Of a DNA stretch of 26,484 nucleotides, positions 14,470 to 24,664 are shown piece by piece. Every line of letters starts with the position of its first letter. Positions within the stretch are counted from its first letter, which is position 1. A program made the translations under genes and the position numbers. Under the pieces are notes generated by a model that had not been told where the DNA came from, ran no database searches, and was given only the letters and a program-made list of their open reading frames with translations. Source of the DNA: a virus; the IMG/VR virus record IMGVR_UViG_3300048672_000154, positions 1 to 26,484 of that record. One strand, written 5' to 3'.

Positions 14470-14919
14470 TTATAGCTTGTACTCTTTGATCCCTCGTCCT
14501 GTATTAGGGTCATGCTTGGAAGCGATCCTTACCGCCTCGGCAGGAGTTGCTCCAGCAGCCATAGCGGCAATAGCCAAGTGCATACCACTACCGATAGAAA
14601 AGTAAGGTTCATCAATCTGCATCCAATTTTGTAGATTAGTTCCATGATAGATTTTACCTTCATCTGTTAACATCAGTAATTCAATATTCTTGAGCTTTGG
14701 TGGTTTGTCAGTTGGCACAGCAAACCATGCCACTAACTCTCCCCAAATATCAGCATTGCCGGCAAAGCCAATGAGAACACGTTTCGCACCGAAGATACTC
14801 TTTGCTACCTCTGGCTTTAAATCAACTACTTTAGTCTTGCCTTTGAACTTAATTCCACCTGAATGGGTGAACTGAAGGTCACAGGCAATCCCAGTTTTAT
14901 TTACTGCTATTGTTGTCAT
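14470..14919 (-). CDS. HslV/proteasome-beta-like Ntn-hydrolase (peptidase)
   Basis: A 149-residue protein resembling the HslV peptidase. It begins MTTIAV, so removal of Met would expose the Thr nucleophile as in HslV. The catalytic Asp (IACDLQFT, HslV Asp17) and Lys (KGKTKV, HslV Lys33) are both present, as are GFAGNAD (HslV GFAGGTAD) and IGSGMHLAIAA (HslV IGSGGPYAQAA). It is shorter than HslV (about 175). The frame opens upstream to a TTG at 14931, but ATG 14919 is in a TAATG overlap with the preceding stop and gives the expected N-terminal Thr. It is the last gene of the leftward operon. No HslU-like ATPase is in the window. A self-compartmentalising protease of the phage, or a partner for host HslU, is inferred. 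Confidence 0.78.
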   Translation of the reverse strand: MTTIAVNKTGIACDLQFTHSGGIKFKGKTKVVDLKPEVAKSIFGAKRVLIGFAGNADIWGELVAWFAVPTDKPPKLKNIELLMLTDEGKIYHGTNLQNWMQIDEPYFSIGSGMHLAIAAMAAGATPAEAVRIASKHDPNTGRGIKEYKL

Positions 14920-14951
14920 TATACGCCGCAAGACCCTCCATGGCCGGTGAT
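14919..14951 (-). repeat. Downstream copy of the reductase C-terminal tail
   Basis: The last ten codons and stop of the HNH gene encode ITGHGGSCGV. Eight residues equal the reductase tail at 15304-15336, but of those eight codons seven differ at the third base. I count 19 of 30 identical bases. The stop is shared (TAA). Confidence 0.8.
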
Positions 14952-15314
14952 GTCGAGATACTCAATGGCTTTTTCGAGGTTCTCTTTTGAGTCTTGGAAG
15001 TGGCCGAGGGCTCGATTACAGTTGTTGCAGAGGAGCCCGCGAATTTCTTTCGTTTCGTGGCAGTGGTCAACATCTAAATTCCTACCTTCTTTTGGAGGTT
15101 TACCACAGATAGCGCAAACCCCGTTTTGTTTACGAAGCATTTCTAACAAGTCTTCTATGGTAAGGTTGTACCTAGATTTAAGAGAACGTTTAGAGGTTCG
15201 CTTGATTACACGATCTTTATTAGCTTCGTAGTATTCTCGGTTACGCTCTTTCTCCGCTTCTTTGTTTTTATCGTACCAAACCTTGCCGTATTTCTGATAA
15301 TGGTTAGACACCAC
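14919..15314 (-). CDS. Endonuclease VII-type HNH nuclease, probable mobile gene
   Basis: A 131-residue protein with a basic helical N-terminus and a His-Me finger domain of the T4 endonuclease VII type. Zinc-type pairs CAIC (67-70) and CNNC (96-99) flank the catalytic LDVDHCHE segment (80-87), followed by N100. GTG 15314 is preceded by AGGGGAGG at 15320-15327, inside the last codons of the reductase gene. The final residues (ITGHGGSCGV) copy the end of the upstream reductase (ITGRGGTCGV). The stop forms a TAATG overlap with the HslV-like gene. This layout suggests a free-standing homing endonuclease inserted at the reductase 3' end. The alternative is a true Holliday-junction resolvase of the phage. 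Confidence 0.8.
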   Translation of the reverse strand: MVSNHYQKYGKVWYDKNKEAEKERNREYYEANKDRVIKRTSKRSLKSRYNLTIEDLLEMLRKQNGVCAICGKPPKEGRNLDVDHCHETKEIRGLLCNNCNRALGHFQDSKENLEKAIEYLDITGHGGSCGV

Positions 15315-15336
15315 AAGTGCCTCCCCTACCAGTAAT
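15304..15336 (-). repeat. Upstream copy: reductase C-terminal tail
   Basis: The last ten codons and stop of the ribonucleotide reductase encode ITGRGGTCGV. The HNH start (GTG 15314) lies inside this copy in another frame, and its AGG-GGA-GGC codons act as the HNH ribosome binding site. Pairs with the copy at 14919-14951. Confidence 0.8.
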
Positions 15337-16962
15337 CAAACACTGGTCGTGTTCTTCAAAGACGGTTCCTTTGTGCTTGATTGCTTCGTCATAATCAATC
15401 TCAGTTATGGGCTGACCTCCTCGACTTCCATCTGGATAACATGTGAACCCGCGAAGTCTGGGTGCATAGTTTGCAAGTACCTGCGCAAAACGGCCAACTG
15501 ACCCCTCGTTGTTCTCCCTCGTGCCCCAAGCCGGGAGATTAATTGTGCTGGAAATTGACATGTCAACGTAATCTTGTATGTCTGCTTGGAACTTGATTCT
15601 TCGTTCGTAGTCATGACTTAACTTGTAGGCGGTGTCGATTGTTTCTGGTTTGATTCCATACTCTTTAATTAGGTGGTCTGCTGTGGCATCGATGACATAG
15701 CTGTACTTCCACTTAGTCCCGTCAGTGAGGAATCTTCGTTTATAAGCCACAGCAAAAAGTGGCTCAATACCTGTAGTTGTGCTAGCGAGAATGCCGATTG
15801 TGCCAGTTGGCGCGATAGCTCGATAGGCAACTGGCCTACTAATGTAGAAACGGTCACAGTGCTCGTCCGCGCTTCTTTCACTTTCTGCTCGGTATACTTC
15901 AAGCCATTGTTTAAGTTCATCTGTTACTTCGTACTTCTGTCCACGTTTGAGTAGCCATTCATGAATGCCCATAAGGCCGAGCCCGAGGCGTCTATTTTTT
16001 TCCCGAACCTTATAGACCTTTTCGTACGGTAGATCGGCTCTAAGTGTTCCGCAGACGAGGAACTTACTTGCAAGCGCCACCACTGATCGAAATTCGTCCA
16101 AATTTGATATATTACCCAAATTAATAGACCCAAGGTTGCATACGTCGCTATCATCTTCAGACGTAACCTCAGTACAAGCATTTCTAAGTGTTTCATTTTG
16201 TTTATTACCAAAGTTAAAAGAGAATCCTGGTTCCCCAGTCATCATCGCTTGTTTGCAATTTTCTAGGAATATATTGTTTGTAGATAATGTTCCCCATAAA
16301 CCATTGTAACCTGTCGCTGCATCATCATAGTTCACTGAGATATTAGTCATATCCAGTGGAGCAGGGAAATTGAAGTCTGCTGCCTTTAAGTCTCGGAGTT
16401 GTTGGTTCCAGTTTTTGGCTGATAGGAAGAGAGGAATATCTTCATGTTGCCAATTAAGACTTGCATAGATTGCAGAACGTCTTGAGCCTCCTTGCATGAC
16501 GTTTCGGCCGATTTCATTAATGGCATACATGAGAGGCAGAGGTCCGCTAGCAACTCCCCCTGTTCGTGCCAAAGGGCGTCCAGCGGGCCTGAGTCTTGAG
16601 TAATCAATTCCAATACCTCCACCTGTCATTAGACATGACATAGCTCGCCATGTTACTGCGCTCCACTCTTCTCTGGTGTCTTCTTCCGCTCGTAGAAGGT
16701 AACAGTTATTGTACGCCTTATAAGGTCTTCCTGCATAGTAGAGGTAACGTCCACCGGGAATAAACCGCATGCATTTAATATGCTCGGCAAGTTCTCTTCG
16801 ATCTTCGGAAGACATGAGTACAGGTAAGGTTCCTCCTCTTTCTCCACATACGTCGTCCACCAAGCGGTCACTAAGGGCATCCCAGGAGTCGTTTGGTCCT
16901 TGTGCATATTTGTTCCTAAAAATTGTTTCAGCGAACTCAGTCTTGAATCTTTGTATTTGCAT
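15304..16962 (-). CDS. nrdJ: Class II (adenosylcobalamin-dependent) ribonucleotide reductase
   Basis: A protein of about 552 residues that would reduce ribonucleotides to deoxyribonucleotides. Visible are the first redox Cys (YNNC, about 87), GGGIG near 114, the active-site N-x-C-x-E (NACTE, about 261-265), the partner Cys in DVCNLGSINL (about 275), PTGTIG near 385, and the SISSTINLP strand, which points to class II. The C-terminus DQC...GGTCGV supplies two Cys for re-reduction. No radical-generating small subunit or activase is in the window, consistent with class II. ATG 16962 follows a GGAG; a TTG at 16965 is possible. The 3' end is overlapped by the HNH gene whose own end copies this tail. 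Confidence 0.85.
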   Translation of the reverse strand: MQIQRFKTEFAETIFRNKYAQGPNDSWDALSDRLVDDVCGERGGTLPVLMSSEDRRELAEHIKCMRFIPGGRYLYYAGRPYKAYNNCYLLRAEEDTREEWSAVTWRAMSCLMTGGGIGIDYSRLRPAGRPLARTGGVASGPLPLMYAINEIGRNVMQGGSRRSAIYASLNWQHEDIPLFLSAKNWNQQLRDLKAADFNFPAPLDMTNISVNYDDAATGYNGLWGTLSTNNIFLENCKQAMMTGEPGFSFNFGNKQNETLRNACTEVTSEDDSDVCNLGSINLGNISNLDEFRSVVALASKFLVCGTLRADLPYEKVYKVREKNRRLGLGLMGIHEWLLKRGQKYEVTDELKQWLEVYRAESERSADEHCDRFYISRPVAYRAIAPTGTIGILASTTTGIEPLFAVAYKRRFLTDGTKWKYSYVIDATADHLIKEYGIKPETIDTAYKLSHDYERRIKFQADIQDYVDMSISSTINLPAWGTRENNEGSVGRFAQVLANYAPRLRGFTCYPDGSRGGQPITEIDYDEAIKHKGTVFEEHDQCLITGRGGTCGV

Positions 16963-17185
16963 CAATCTCCCTCAGCCGTGCTTGAATGTTTTTAAGTGTT
17001 TTATGAATGTCTACCATCGCTGTGTTGTAATGCGCAAGGCACCAGTCTAAGTGAGCTTGATTATTTGCGTCAGTATCTACTCCTCGAAGCAAATCTTTAA
17101 GAACACTAAAATCAGTAATATAGCTACTAGCCAAACGATCAATGTAGTCATTTAGACTTTTTAGATTCTTGTTTTTTAAACTCAT
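16937..17185 (-). CDS. Small helical protein, unknown
   Basis: An 82-residue, mostly helical protein (MSLKNKNLKSLNDYIDRL to the end) with a single HLDWCLAHYN segment in the middle. I chose ATG 17185 because AGGA lies 5 to 6 bases upstream and the longer open frame (to 17266) overlaps the previous gene heavily. It overlaps the reductase start by 26 bases, so it is co-translated. No recognised family. A dimeric helical regulator or scaffold is possible, but nothing supports a function. Confidence 0.55.
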   Translation of the reverse strand: MSLKNKNLKSLNDYIDRLASSYITDFSVLKDLLRGVDTDANNQAHLDWCLAHYNTAMVDIHKTLKNIQARLREIDANTKIQD

Positions 17186-21578: not shown

Positions 21579-22026
21579 ACACCCAATCGAAGTAACGTTG
21601 TGCTAGATCGAGTACTTCTTCGGCATGAACTGGAGTTTCTCTGGTAGCAAGCGTGGCAATGGCATTACTGATACTAGACTGGCGAACAATACGTACGCGA
21701 TTGTCAGCACGTTCTTGTGGAGTTTCATAGTTTGATCCTGTTACCCTGCCCACACCGGGTGATGCCGCCTTAGCTTCCGCAGTTGCCGCTTCGACTTTGG
21801 CCCATTCGTTATAACCGGCCGCATTCTTGGTAGAAGTAATTTCAATTCGATCCCCATCTTTAAGGGTTTGTACTGTCTCAAATACGCCAGGGTTGGTGAA
21901 GCTCATCACCTTCTGAGTACGTGTCTCTCCCTGGTAGTCATAGGTAACGGTAGCTACCGAGTAACGTGCCTTACCTTTGACGACGTTCTGTACGTCCACA
22001 GACTTAACTGTTGCTTGAAAGCTCAT
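21550..22026 (-). CDS. Putative OB-fold single-stranded DNA-binding protein
   Basis: A 158-residue protein. The N-terminal 80 residues form a beta-barrel-like pattern (ATVKSVDVQNVVKGKARYSV, TVTYDYQGETRTQKVMSF, LKDGDRIEITSTK, EWAKVE) of OB-fold single-stranded DNA-binding proteins. A central linker is followed by the helical RIVRQSSISNAIATLA segment found in several phage SSB-like proteins. The C-terminus is acidic (SESDESQ), like SSB tails that recruit partners. Placed directly after the polymerase gene (23-base overlap), it fits a replication SSB. The barrel is weakly conserved, so this stays putative. Confidence 0.6.
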   Translation of the reverse strand: MSFQATVKSVDVQNVVKGKARYSVATVTYDYQGETRTQKVMSFTNPGVFETVQTLKDGDRIEITSTKNAAGYNEWAKVEAATAEAKAASPGVGRVTGSNYETPQERADNRVRIVRQSSISNAIATLATRETPVHAEEVLDLAQRYFDWVYASESDESQ

Positions 22027-22720
22027 ATAGTTCTAAATCCTTTTTATTTGGTCCCACCATAATTTCACAATTTAATGGAAGCGTGAAATCATAGTTGAAG
22101 TATTCTCTGCACATGGATGGGACTGATTCCACTGCATTCTTTAACATGATACTAATATTATACACGTTTTTGGACGGCGTGTCAACTACTAAGCTATCAT
22201 GGATCGTTTGAATAAAGAAACCCTCTAAGCCAGAAGCAATAAAGTCTTTAAAGAATTTAATTCTGGCTAGCATCACTAACTCTGCCCCAAACCCCTGTAC
22301 GGGGTAGTTCTTAATCTGTGTTAGGGGCCATTTCCATTCACCCCTGTCGTTTCTCTTTGGTATAAAGTTGTAGTATCTTCCTGATGGGATAGTGAGGAAA
22401 GCGTATTCTTTAGCTTCTCGTTCAATTTGTTGATGCCATCTTCCAATGCCTGTGTACTTGGCGTAGAACTCGTCAATAACTGCTTGCCACTGTTTGCGCG
22501 TAAAGCCAACATCCAGGAAGTCACTGTCTTGTACATATCCAAAAGCTGTTGCTCCGTACAAAAGCTTAAAGATGAATCTCTTCGCAGTGACGCGATCAGG
22601 GAGTTTAAATCTCTCCTGATTGAGTGCATGCAAATCAAGTTTTCGTCGTAATTCATCCTTCAATACCTCGTCTTGTGATAACTCTGCTGCTACTACAACC
22701 TCTAGGAAGCCCCTTGACAT
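22004..22720 (-). CDS. DNA polymerase family A, C-terminal fragment (fingers/palm)
   Basis: A 238-residue C-terminal half of a Pol I-type polymerase. LEVVVAAELSQDEVL aligns with the region just after the motif A Asp (E. coli IELRIMAHLSRDKGLL). Motif B is RVTAKRFIFKLLYGAT (R43, K47, Y55) and motif C is TIHDSLVVD (172-180). From ATG 22720 the fragment lacks the catalytic motif A Asp. In the +2 frame just upstream, the DNA reads LINVDVKGL (22707-22733) and matches motif A, but 4 extra bases (22703-22706) put it out of frame. TTG 22736 (AGGAGG 8 bases upstream) would start that frame. It cannot work alone as a polymerase. Confidence 0.8.
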   Translation of the reverse strand: MSRGFLEVVVAAELSQDEVLKDELRRKLDLHALNQERFKLPDRVTAKRFIFKLLYGATAFGYVQDSDFLDVGFTRKQWQAVIDEFYAKYTGIGRWHQQIEREAKEYAFLTIPSGRYYNFIPKRNDRGEWKWPLTQIKNYPVQGFGAELVMLARIKFFKDFIASGLEGFFIQTIHDSLVVDTPSKNVYNISIMLKNAVESVPSMCREYFNYDFTLPLNCEIMVGPNKKDLELYELSSNS

Positions 22721-22737
22721 CGACGTTAATCAGCAAG
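22710..22737 (-). repeat. Motif A segment, copy 2 (after the HNH gene)
   Basis: In coding direction it reads GCTGATTAACGTCGATGTC and continues to GGGG. Translated in the polymerase frame this is LINVDVKG, the motif A core. Copy 1 lies at 23251-23280; 16 of the first 18 bases match. Confidence 0.75.
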
Positions 22738-23250
22738 GGGCAAACCTCCTTCGGAAGCCAGCACCCAGTTAGCAAAAGCAAGTCTCTCTTCACGAGTCGA
22801 GTCCCACTTCATAGCATTAGCTAATTGAGAAATCACTTGTACATTTCCTTTAATATAACCAAGCTCAGGAATAATTCTGTCTAAAGAATACCCAAGACGC
22901 CGATTACTTTTACTAAATGGCCGATTAAACACCGGACATACTTCCGGTAACATTAAATCTTCCTCTGTTAAATCAAAGGGAACTTGTTTCATTACTGCAC
23001 GGGCTTTGGCATGTCTAAGTAGAAAGGCTTTAATATTACTAGGGTCTGCTTTTCGCCTATGATATGAGTCCCTTGCCCATTGCTTCGCCTTTTCTACATA
23101 AGCATCACCACCCTCTTCTTTTAGTTGTTTTGCAGTCTTCCACTTATGCTTATTTTGCTTATAGTAATCATGAACTTTTAATTTGTACTGTATAAGCTTT
23201 TCAAACTCACCTTTACGTTCTAAAGTCTTTATATAAGTTTCTCTTGGCAT
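22726..23250 (-). CDS. HNH-like homing endonuclease candidate in the DNA polymerase locus
   Basis: A 174-residue protein with a basic helical N-terminus, then FDLTEEDLMLPEVCPVFNRPF (92-112), a SLDRIIPELGYIKGN segment (122-136) and VISQLANAMK (139-148). The CPV..., S-L-D-R-I, G-Y-x-x-G-N-V and A-N-x-x-K pattern is typical of mobile phage HNH-like nucleases. It lies exactly between two pieces of the polymerase gene, and the DNA is AT-rich (17 G+C of 60 at 23161-23220, 30 of 60 at 22261-22320 in the polymerase). It begins at ATG 23250 with AGGAGG 3 bases upstream, a short spacing. It is flanked by diverged copies of motif A. It might be encoded in an intron. Confidence 0.75.
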   Translation of the reverse strand: MPRETYIKTLERKGEFEKLIQYKLKVHDYYKQNKHKWKTAKQLKEEGGDAYVEKAKQWARDSYHRRKADPSNIKAFLLRHAKARAVMKQVPFDLTEEDLMLPEVCPVFNRPFSKSNRRLGYSLDRIIPELGYIKGNVQVISQLANAMKWDSTREERLAFANWVLASEGGLPLAD

Positions 23251-23280
23251 AATCCTCCTACATCGCAGTTAATCAGCATC
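23251..23280 (-). repeat. Motif A segment, copy 1 (before the HNH gene)
   Basis: In coding direction it reads GATGCTGATTAACTGCGATG, then TAGGAGGATT. In the polymerase frame this is MLINCDVGGL, another motif A-like core. The same bases give the stop of the 62-residue ORF and the AGGAGG ribosome binding site of the HNH gene. Confidence 0.75.
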
Positions 23281-23457
23281 TTCAATAGTGATAGCAAAGA
23301 GAGTTACTTCAGGTCCCATTATACTATCTGAGAGATACTCACTCTGTTCCTTATTTCTACGTTCCACTGCTTTATCATAATCATAATAAGCAGCAAATGG
23401 ACTAGTATATCCTTCATATGGATAACTGGTTGCCAGCACATAAATTTCTTTAGTCAT
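23269..23457 (-). CDS. Small protein inserted in the polymerase locus, unknown
   Basis: A 62-residue ORF. It starts at ATG 23457, inside the last codons of the polymerase N-terminal fragment (8-base overlap), with GGTGAG upstream. The protein (KEIYVLATSYPYEGYTSPFAAYY, then KAVERRNKEQSEYL, then VTLFAITIEDAD) has a strand-helix-strand pattern like other small phage proteins of unknown function. Its last codons and stop come from the copy 1 motif A repeat. It may be a passenger of the insertion or a separate moron gene. Confidence 0.5.
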   Translation of the reverse strand: MTKEIYVLATSYPYEGYTSPFAAYYDYDKAVERRNKEQSEYLSDSIMGPEVTLFAITIEDAD

Positions 23458-24664
23458 ATCTACTCACCAATAGTTCGTCCACTTCCACCGGAGTATTTTG
23501 GAGATTAGGTCCGCTGGAACTAAGACGCCCAGTAACAGCCACATTTTGATTAAATTGACCGTGTATGTAGTCATTTTCCCAATTCATTTCTTTAGATTTG
23601 TTTGTAATACTTGCAATCATTTCTGAAACTTTAATGAGTTCCGATCTTTCCAGGAGAAGCCTGAGCAAATCACGACTCTCCTTCCTACGACTGGTAAGTT
23701 GTTTGATGGTGGGAGCATCTGTTTGATAAAAACGTACCTTCGCTTCTGGGTCTTTCGCAGTCTTCGCAACTTCAGTACCCTCAAGTGGTACAAACCTAGG
23801 TGTAAACCGTACCAACTCTCGTCTCCAAGAGTTCTTTGTATAGCTCTGTCCCACACGTTCACCAGACTTATACACCGATTCCGTAGGTATTGCCCATTCA
23901 AACTCTATTTCTCCTCCGTAGAGTAGTGCTGACACTTGGTCACCACTATCCCAGTTGAAGTGTACTCCTTGTGGTATTTCGGGAAGATAGGTCTTGAGTG
24001 ATTCTTCGAGTTTCTCAATACTTCCTTCAAGATCACTTTGCCTTTCAGTTGCTTTTTGTTTATTCCACTTGACACCGGCATATTCTGCATGTTGTAGCGC
24101 CTTTAAATCTTCTCCCATAAGGTAAACCAATCGTTTTTGTTTGTCATCCATGATGGATTGCTGATGGCAATACAACGCATAGGTCCCGTCGGTGTCATAA
24201 AGATTGTATTCCTCAAGGATGTCCAGAGGGATGTCTTCGGTGCTAATGCCGCATGCCCAATACTCAGCCACAAGGTCTGGTTTTCTAGGTTCTCCATAGC
24301 TTTCCAATGCCTCGTTTAGCGAAATAAATCTAGCAGTTTGCCCGGAGATAACGAACTCAGCAAGCGCACAATCCCAAATCCGGCAGTCAGCAGGAACCCT
24401 AACACCAACCCGCTGACTCCAATGAAGATCGAACTTGAAACTAAATCCGACCAACTCTGTTGCTGACTCCACATTGTTACGAAGATCAGTAATGAAATCA
24501 GGATCAGAAAAATACCGGAATCTACTAGGATTTCCGACAGGCTTATAGGCGTAGCTGACAAGTTTGTTTCGCGGATCAAATGGATGACCTTTGTTATACG
24601 TGGAAGTTTCAACATCAATAGTGACCTTCAGATTTTTCTCCTGCCTCTGCACGTTTAATAGCAT
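23450..24664 (-). CDS. DNA polymerase family A, N-terminal fragment (exonuclease and thumb)
   Basis: A 404-residue N-terminal piece of a Pol I-type phage polymerase. It has a 3'-5' proofreading domain: ExoI TIDVETS (D17, E19), ExoII FSFKFDLHW (D79) and ExoIII YNLYDTDGTY (Y153, D157). The polymerase part begins later and breaks off after GRLSSSGPNLQNTP (the GRLSSxxPNLQNIP motif, about 379-392) and a short run ending SRYD, then TAA. In intact relatives the motif A Asp follows about 15-30 residues later; here it is missing. ATG 24664 overlaps the phosphoesterase end by 50 bases; nearer rare starts are possible. The break coincides with the insertion of the 62-residue and HNH genes. Confidence 0.8.
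   Translation of the reverse strand: MLLNVQRQEKNLKVTIDVETSTYNKGHPFDPRNKLVSYAYKPVGNPSRFRYFSDPDFITDLRNNVESATELVGFSFKFDLHWSQRVGVRVPADCRIWDCALAEFVISGQTARFISLNEALESYGEPRKPDLVAEYWACGISTEDIPLDILEEYNLYDTDGTYALYCHQQSIMDDKQKRLVYLMGEDLKALQHAEYAGVKWNKQKATERQSDLEGSIEKLEESLKTYLPEIPQGVHFNWDSGDQVSALLYGGEIEFEWAIPTESVYKSGERVGQSYTKNSWRRELVRFTPRFVPLEGTEVAKTAKDPEAKVRFYQTDAPTIKQLTSRRKESRDLLRLLLERSELIKVSEMIASITNKSKEMNWENDYIHGQFNQNVAVTGRLSSSGPNLQNTPVEVDELLVSRYD

Follow-up and report, generated by a model that had tools for sequence, protein, structure and literature searches.

Why should an endonuclease gene in a phage end in almost the same residues as the ribonucleotide reductase gene that precedes it? The window analysed here is a stretch of 26,484 nucleotides (positions 1 to 26,484 of IMG/VR virus record IMGVR_UViG_3300048672_000154), in which the class II reductase gene nrdJ ends in HDQC-LITGRGGTCGV and the following HNH gene ends in IEYL-DITGHGGSCGV, each followed directly by a stop codon. 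Our results make it likely that a free-standing homing endonuclease gene of the Endo VII type has inserted into the 3' end of nrdJ and replaced its tail. The locus is composed of the following features:

15304..16965, minus strand: nrdJ, class II (B12-type) ribonucleotide reductase with replacement tail (Pfam Ribonuc_red_lgC; structures; relatives)
15340..15342, minus strand: TGT, encoding the first cysteine of the tail, at the left edge of the insertion (invariant Cys; flank joining)
15307..15339, minus strand: replacement reductase tail LITGRGGTCGV, with the stop codon at 15306-15304
14955..15339, minus strand: inferred mobile unit of 385 bp, replacement tail plus HNH frame without a stop codon of its own
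14955..15314, minus strand: Endo VII-type HNH (DHHRN) endonuclease, residues 1-120 (Pfam PF02945; model)
15314..14919, minus strand: whole HNH reading frame, including the old tail
14922..14954, minus strand: original tail of the reductase, DITGHGGSCGV, now stranded and forming the in-frame C-terminus of the HNH protein
14470..14919, minus strand: HslV-like gene (phrog_1040), original 3' neighbour of nrdJ (adjoins nrdJ in uninserted relatives)

The new tail starts at 15339 and the old one at 14954, leaving an insert of 15339..14955. The GTG start of the HNH gene sits within the last reductase codons, so that the two genes overlap, and the ATG of the HslV-like gene overlaps the HNH stop, which is the old reductase stop, in the sequence TAATG. 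The solved structures nearest to the window reductase are those of B12-dependent reductases (1xje/1xjk).

Uninserted relatives preserve the original reductase end

A search of IMG/VR with the window reductase yielded 80 relatives with 75-85% identity. In uninserted relatives the reductase ends in HDxC-DITGHGGSCGV (e.g. HDVCDITGHGGSCGV and similar), and in several the HslV-like gene follows directly or within 0-10 nt (L009, L012, L020, L021, L039, L040, L050 and L059); L002 is also among the HNH-free relatives with this tail beside the HslV-like gene, and the TAATG layout of L050 is identical to that of the window. The tail fused to the window HNH is that of the uninserted relatives in 11/11 residues, with the commonest residue of their reductase tails at every position. 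The tail now in use by the window reductase departs from the family consensus at 3/11 positions (D to L, H to R and S to T). Both cysteines and the glycines are invariant in 87 other distinct reductase tails.

The nucleotide sequence placed the 3' boundary at the same point. The stranded tail is identical to L022 at up to 31/36 nt, stop codon included, and from its start onward the 3' flank of the window shows 80% identity over 74 nt to the empty site of L002, similarity to empty-site relatives resuming at query position 59-61. Joining the window flanks at 15340|14954 produced HDQCDITGHGGSCGV followed by a stop codon, a consensus reductase end. The 385-bp unit is thus inferred from its absence from relatives, from the similarity that marks its 3' boundary and from the joined flanks. 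Its 5' boundary is less direct, being itself an inference: the two tails share homology, and a conversion tract might have reached further upstream.

The original prediction, made without database searches, had described the tail pair, with seven of eight shared residues recoded, and the TAATG junction; both were confirmed on the sequence, the tail match extending by one residue (the D before ITG) to 11 residues in total. Its central claim, that the HNH gene entered the 3' end of the reductase gene, supplied a new tail and stranded the old one, also held. So did its expectation that HNH-free relatives would carry the HNH-type tail on a reductase next to the HslV-like gene.

We found no such insertion in the remaining nrdJ relatives whose reductase ends were compared, indicating that tail-replacing insertion is rare. 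We also considered whether Ser in place of Asp after the cysteine (L002, L005) might be the scar of a past insertion, but rejected this because 17/87 tails have Ser, mostly in other lineages without an HNH gene.

The inserted gene encodes a DHHRN-type nuclease

Pfam PF02945 matched the window HNH (7e-25) over residues 44-121 of 131, stopping exactly where the old tail starts. Other HNH homologues stop at residue ~120-121 without an added tail, and those of L126 and L128, ending in YLKT and YLKEHT, reveal the natural C-terminus. Residues C67, C70, D83, H84, H86, R92, C96, C99 and N100 were invariant in a 20-sequence alignment (A3), and the window HNH contains the CX2C ... DHxH ... R ... CX2C-N catalytic/zinc pattern of the DHHRN homing family (PMC6083498). 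Its Endo VII motif is C-terminal, as in the endonuclease clade, and not N-terminal as in resolvases. An AlphaFold2 model (pLDDT 90), confident save for the last ~8 residues, matched T4 Endo VII and Hpy99I. Since the key residues are conserved and the model is confident except at its end, we infer that the nuclease is probably active, although cleavage is untested, and the model predicts that the stranded tail is likely no more than a loose appendage. Identity with the Holliday resolvase T4 Endo VII was rejected, because 1en7-type chains match residues 58-108 only.

In the window, as in L087, L126 and L127, the nuclease start falls within the last reductase codons in the +1 frame; AGGGGAGG, just ahead of the window HNH start, might act as a ribosome-binding sequence. 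Between the window and L126, identity is 80% over a single 51-nt block that spans the new tail and the HNH start, as compared with 50% in the 30 nt preceding the tail. A single-sequence search for close HNH relatives gave one weak locus, and an alignment query was needed. The resulting HNH tree (107 columns) was unresolved and did not group the nrdJ-linked HNHs in one resolved clade; we therefore do not claim a single nrdJ-specialised HNH lineage.

Similar insertions occur in other phages and in a second gene

Targeted searches detected three further insertions at the same place in nrdJ (L087, L127 and L119), and a fourth in which the invaded 3' end belongs to a gene for a cytosine-5 DNA methyltransferase (L129). 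Each of the four contains a replacement tail and a stranded old tail, and all cases are metagenomic contigs. L087 came from a scan for stray tails; such scans of IMG/VR returned only one further nrdJ insertion. Its reductase ends in HDVCSITGHGGSCGI and a stop codon, with the HNH gene overlapping, and GACATTACCGGACACGGAGGAAGCTGTGGGGTTTAA (DITGHGGSCGV and stop) lies out of frame in the HNH 3' end, followed by the HslV-like gene. An HNH-driven search, blind to nrdJ, gave L126, L127 and L128 as its three best matches, with the HNH gene directly behind nrdJ in all three. L127 carries an out-of-frame stranded FTGHGGSCGV with its stop, and where this tail begins, the 3' flank starts to match the empty locus L003 (82% identity over 77 nt). 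In L119 the nuclease is of a different HNH type (PF01844) and frameshifted, and the stranded VCDITGHGGTCGV with its stop codon lies beyond the HNH stop. In L129, an Endo VII-type HNH occupies the methyltransferase 3' end; the tail in use is IVPSVACEIIRAIVSCGR, followed by a stop, and the stranded one, beginning IVPQVAEEIIRAIANSH, is out of frame. The motif of the L129 tails also ends other phage methyltransferases (e.g. GNAIVPQVAFEIFSAIERYE in L277). A near-identical empty relative of L129 was not found, only general family tails, and a short-peptide tblastn with its stranded tail gave no match, the query being too short to be informative.

Joining the flanks restored the reading frame in 5/5 cases, and the right boundary fell on the same codon, within about two, in 4/4 nrdJ cases. 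L087, L127 and L129 have the old tail in another frame than the HNH gene and L119 has it behind the stop codon, indicating that the in-frame fusion in the window is incidental and that the old tail is a DNA relic rather than a chosen C-terminus. This corrects the earlier view that the HNH protein had kept the old tail as its own C-terminus.

Several of these loci showed further peculiarities. L126 (3974-4360) and L128 (3940-4342) hold an Endo VII-type HNH directly behind nrdJ without a stranded tail; these might be donors, old insertions whose relic has been lost, or insertions made after the stop codon, a layout neither required nor explained by the simple model. In L119 the nuclease frame is broken by the frameshift and both tails are intact, which could reflect a decaying insertion or a sequencing error. 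The 869-aa reductase of L127 (1375-3984) further contains an insert of some 300 aa that resembles an intein, so that two different kinds of selfish element reside in one gene.

Tail matches and codon differences exceed chance

As a control for the tail matches, we made all-against-all comparisons over 150 HNH loci, with 600 mismatched pairs as the null, scoring the best 12-residue match between the tail of the upstream gene and the region behind the HNH. The null scores had a 99th percentile of 29 and a maximum of 34, which L127 (44) and L129 (41) both exceeded. The sole other score over the null maximum was that of L217 (37), which reflects HNH-to-HNH similarity; there, the gene upstream of the HNH is a ~1000-aa frame, itself with an Endo VII-like C-terminus. 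With 10-residue scoring, the window reached 47 and L087 (the same locus as L136) 57, against at most 35 at any locus without a stranded tail. A candidate tail match in L151/L154/L157 was rejected, its score lying within the null. Where a related HNH follows a phage DNA polymerase gene (e.g. L147, L186), no stranded polymerase tail was found. Among the 150 Endo VII-type loci, the ITGxGGxCGV tail occurred only behind nrdJ, so the case that would have refuted the original prediction, an HNH with this ending away from any reductase, was not met.

The two window tails share 8/10 of their last residues, and 7/8 of these use different codons, only GGA being kept. This is not in itself beyond chance: synonymous differences between random tail pairs average 0.67, and 12.7% of pairs reach 7/8. 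When the five cases were pooled, however, codons differed at 37/42 shared residues, as compared with 27.2 expected from the codon usage of each locus (P=5e-4); for the four nrdJ cases alone, they differed at 28/31 (P=0.005 against random tail pairs). The searches that found the cases did not select on codon differences within pairs, although the sample is small. Recoding above chance is thus apparent only on pooling, and the claim of recoding holds for the set of cases and not for the window alone; that the replacement end resists cleavage remains an inference.

A model for tail-replacing insertion

In the mechanism that we propose, the insertion point would lie straight after the codon of the first tail cysteine in nrdJ, and the mobile unit would open with a substitute copy of the last 11 reductase codons and a stop, a stretch that also houses the start codon of the endonuclease. 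The reductase would thus retain a working C-terminus with both cysteines, and the original tail would be displaced 385 bp downstream, where in the window it is read as the end of the HNH protein. Because tail and nuclease start form one block, the tail would travel with the gene. The insert would split the empty-site sequence TGY^GAY ATH ACN GGN; with the site split and the substitute tail differently spelled, neither copy would match the uninserted site, and we infer that the carrier is thereby shielded from its own nuclease, leaving uninserted co-infecting relatives open to cutting and conversion. Repair from the carrier would copy the whole unit into the uninserted genome and strand the recipient's own tail. 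The right boundary shared by the four nrdJ cases suggests that the target likely lies at TGY^GAYATHACNGG, although its position, like cleavage activity, homing and self-protection, is inferred. The insertion, the replaced and stranded tails, the empty sites, the recurrence and the excess recoding are shown. Mobility is supported by no biochemical or genetic data, and the search for a donor of the window replacement tail gave nothing, an exact degenerate pattern for this tail having no match in IMG/VR.

Alternative explanations

The arrangement might instead have arisen by illegitimate recombination without homing, a foreign nrdJ 3' end and an HNH gene having been joined by mosaicism with the nuclease as a bystander. 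Phages do recombine at gene ends, the 5' crossover could be anywhere in nrdJ, and in L126 and L128 the HNH gene that follows nrdJ comes with no stranded tail. We nevertheless consider this unlikely: random joins would be expected to scatter and to bring other genes, whereas four differing nrdJ insertions share the start point of the stranded tail to within about two codons, each stranded tail comes right after the HNH frame, and the same layout recurs in the methyltransferase. Still less probable is that insertion of the HNH gene duplicated the tail locally and that the copies then drifted apart, without any imported tail. Breaks can yield short duplications, and the recoding in the window alone is unremarkable (12.7% of pairs being as different), but it is the reductase copy that has diverged and the idle HNH copy that is consensus, the reverse of what drift predicts. 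Moreover, codons differ more often in the five cases than independent choice would give, the new tail resembles that of L126 as one block with the HNH start, and we saw no close relative in which two nearly identical tails flank the same HNH.

A group I intron or intein with an HNH frame can be practically ruled out. Group I introns in phage polymerase genes do house HNHs of the DHHRN family (PMC6083498), but Rfam gave no match for a ribozyme core, 360 of the 385 bp are coding, and an in-frame reductase stop and a complete functional tail stand ahead of the HNH frame. An alternative that leaves the insertion itself unchanged, and which is a real possibility though less likely than not, is that the recoding reflects avoidance of deletion between direct tail repeats and not nuclease immunity. 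Recombination between similar tails would remove the HNH gene, only dissimilar pairs surviving, and this predicts the same statistical signature as immunity. Conversely, the repeats are only 33 nt long, limiting recombination, and the site is already split by the insert; deletion avoidance and resistance cannot be separated by sequence alone.

Comparison with known systems

Tail-replacing insertion of an endonuclease gene, our preferred reading, follows a logic already known from fungal mitochondria, its occurrence in phages being new as far as the papers searched show. In Allomyces atp6 and Glomus atp6, atp9, cox2 and nad3, endonuclease ORFs occur with C-terminal replacement (PMC3630166); as here, the endonuclease sits at the 3' end of an essential gene, with a foreign C-terminus in use and the native one downstream, and the two tail copies differ mostly at synonymous sites. 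The window shows the same hallmarks of a gene hybrid, since the host gene end is duplicated on both sides of the endonuclease gene and the downstream copy is closer to uninserted relatives than the copy in use. However, the fungal hybrids are mitochondrial, with LAGLIDADG or GIY-YIG endonucleases and longer tails, whereas the window, a virus contig with neither endonuclease type, has a phage Endo VII-type HNH and a tail of 11 codons, the last of which contain the nuclease start.

F-CphI and the DHHRN homing endonucleases (PMC6083498) share the catalytic motif and its C-terminal position in the protein, and are free-standing beside a conserved gene, but F-CphI is spared self-cleavage by the psbA intron and the window HNH, as we infer, by tail replacement and site splitting. 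Aeh1 mobE in nrdA (PMC2988022) is likewise a homing endonuclease gene inside a phage ribonucleotide reductase gene. It splits NrdA into two polypeptides, whereas the window reductase stays in one piece and is complete with its new tail; a genes-in-pieces arrangement of the Aeh1 nrdA type was therefore rejected. Intronless homing and a start codon overlapping the end of the upstream gene are also found in T4 Seg/Mob (PMC2988022), but these sit between intact genes and no stranded gene end is described there. We did not find a phage case of tail replacement in the open-access literature searched, subscription journals not being covered.

Interrupted polymerase genes

Separately, the family A DNA polymerase of the window (22004-24664, minus strand) consists of two frames, split right before palm motif A. 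The gene is split in 15/18 relatives (L006, L007, L008, L010, L011, L013, L018, L020, L024, L025, L030, L031, L039, L047 and L050), with spacers ranging from overlapping frames up to 524 nt, some holding an HNH-like gene (window 22726-23250; L018), and is intact in the more distant relatives L042, L057 and L083. Rfam gave no intron match for the split. Both loci with an HNH-like gene in the polymerase gap contain a small insertion at the same place in motif A: TCCT in the window (about 22700-22720), which shifts the catalytic Asp out of frame, and TTAGCT, with a stop, in L018 (about 770-800), where a partial extra copy of the start of motif A lies behind the first polymerase half. In L277 (MW202733.1 13881-18603), a cytosine methyltransferase gene is flanked on each side by a gene with a DNA polymerase annotation, possibly another interrupted polymerase.

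Implications

Homing endonuclease genes that are free-standing are regarded as mostly restricted to intergenic sites, being unable to splice out (PMC13405050). The phage endonuclease genes described here enter coding sequence by bringing a substitute for the gene end that they displace. A bolder reading, towards which we lean by a narrow margin, is that phages harbour a general class of free-standing endonucleases that invade the 3' ends of conserved genes with a dissimilar spare end, drawn from at least two nuclease families (Endo VII-type and classical HNH) and affecting two host genes (nrdJ and cytosine-5 methyltransferase), the recoding having been selected for nuclease immunity. The components are small and can be handled separately (a tail of 11 codons, a nuclease of 120 residues and empty alleles that are already known, L003 among them), which opens both the target site and the suggested immunity through recoding to direct tests in vitro. 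Unusual C-termini in phage enzymes and in HNH proteins may likewise trace back to insertions of this kind.
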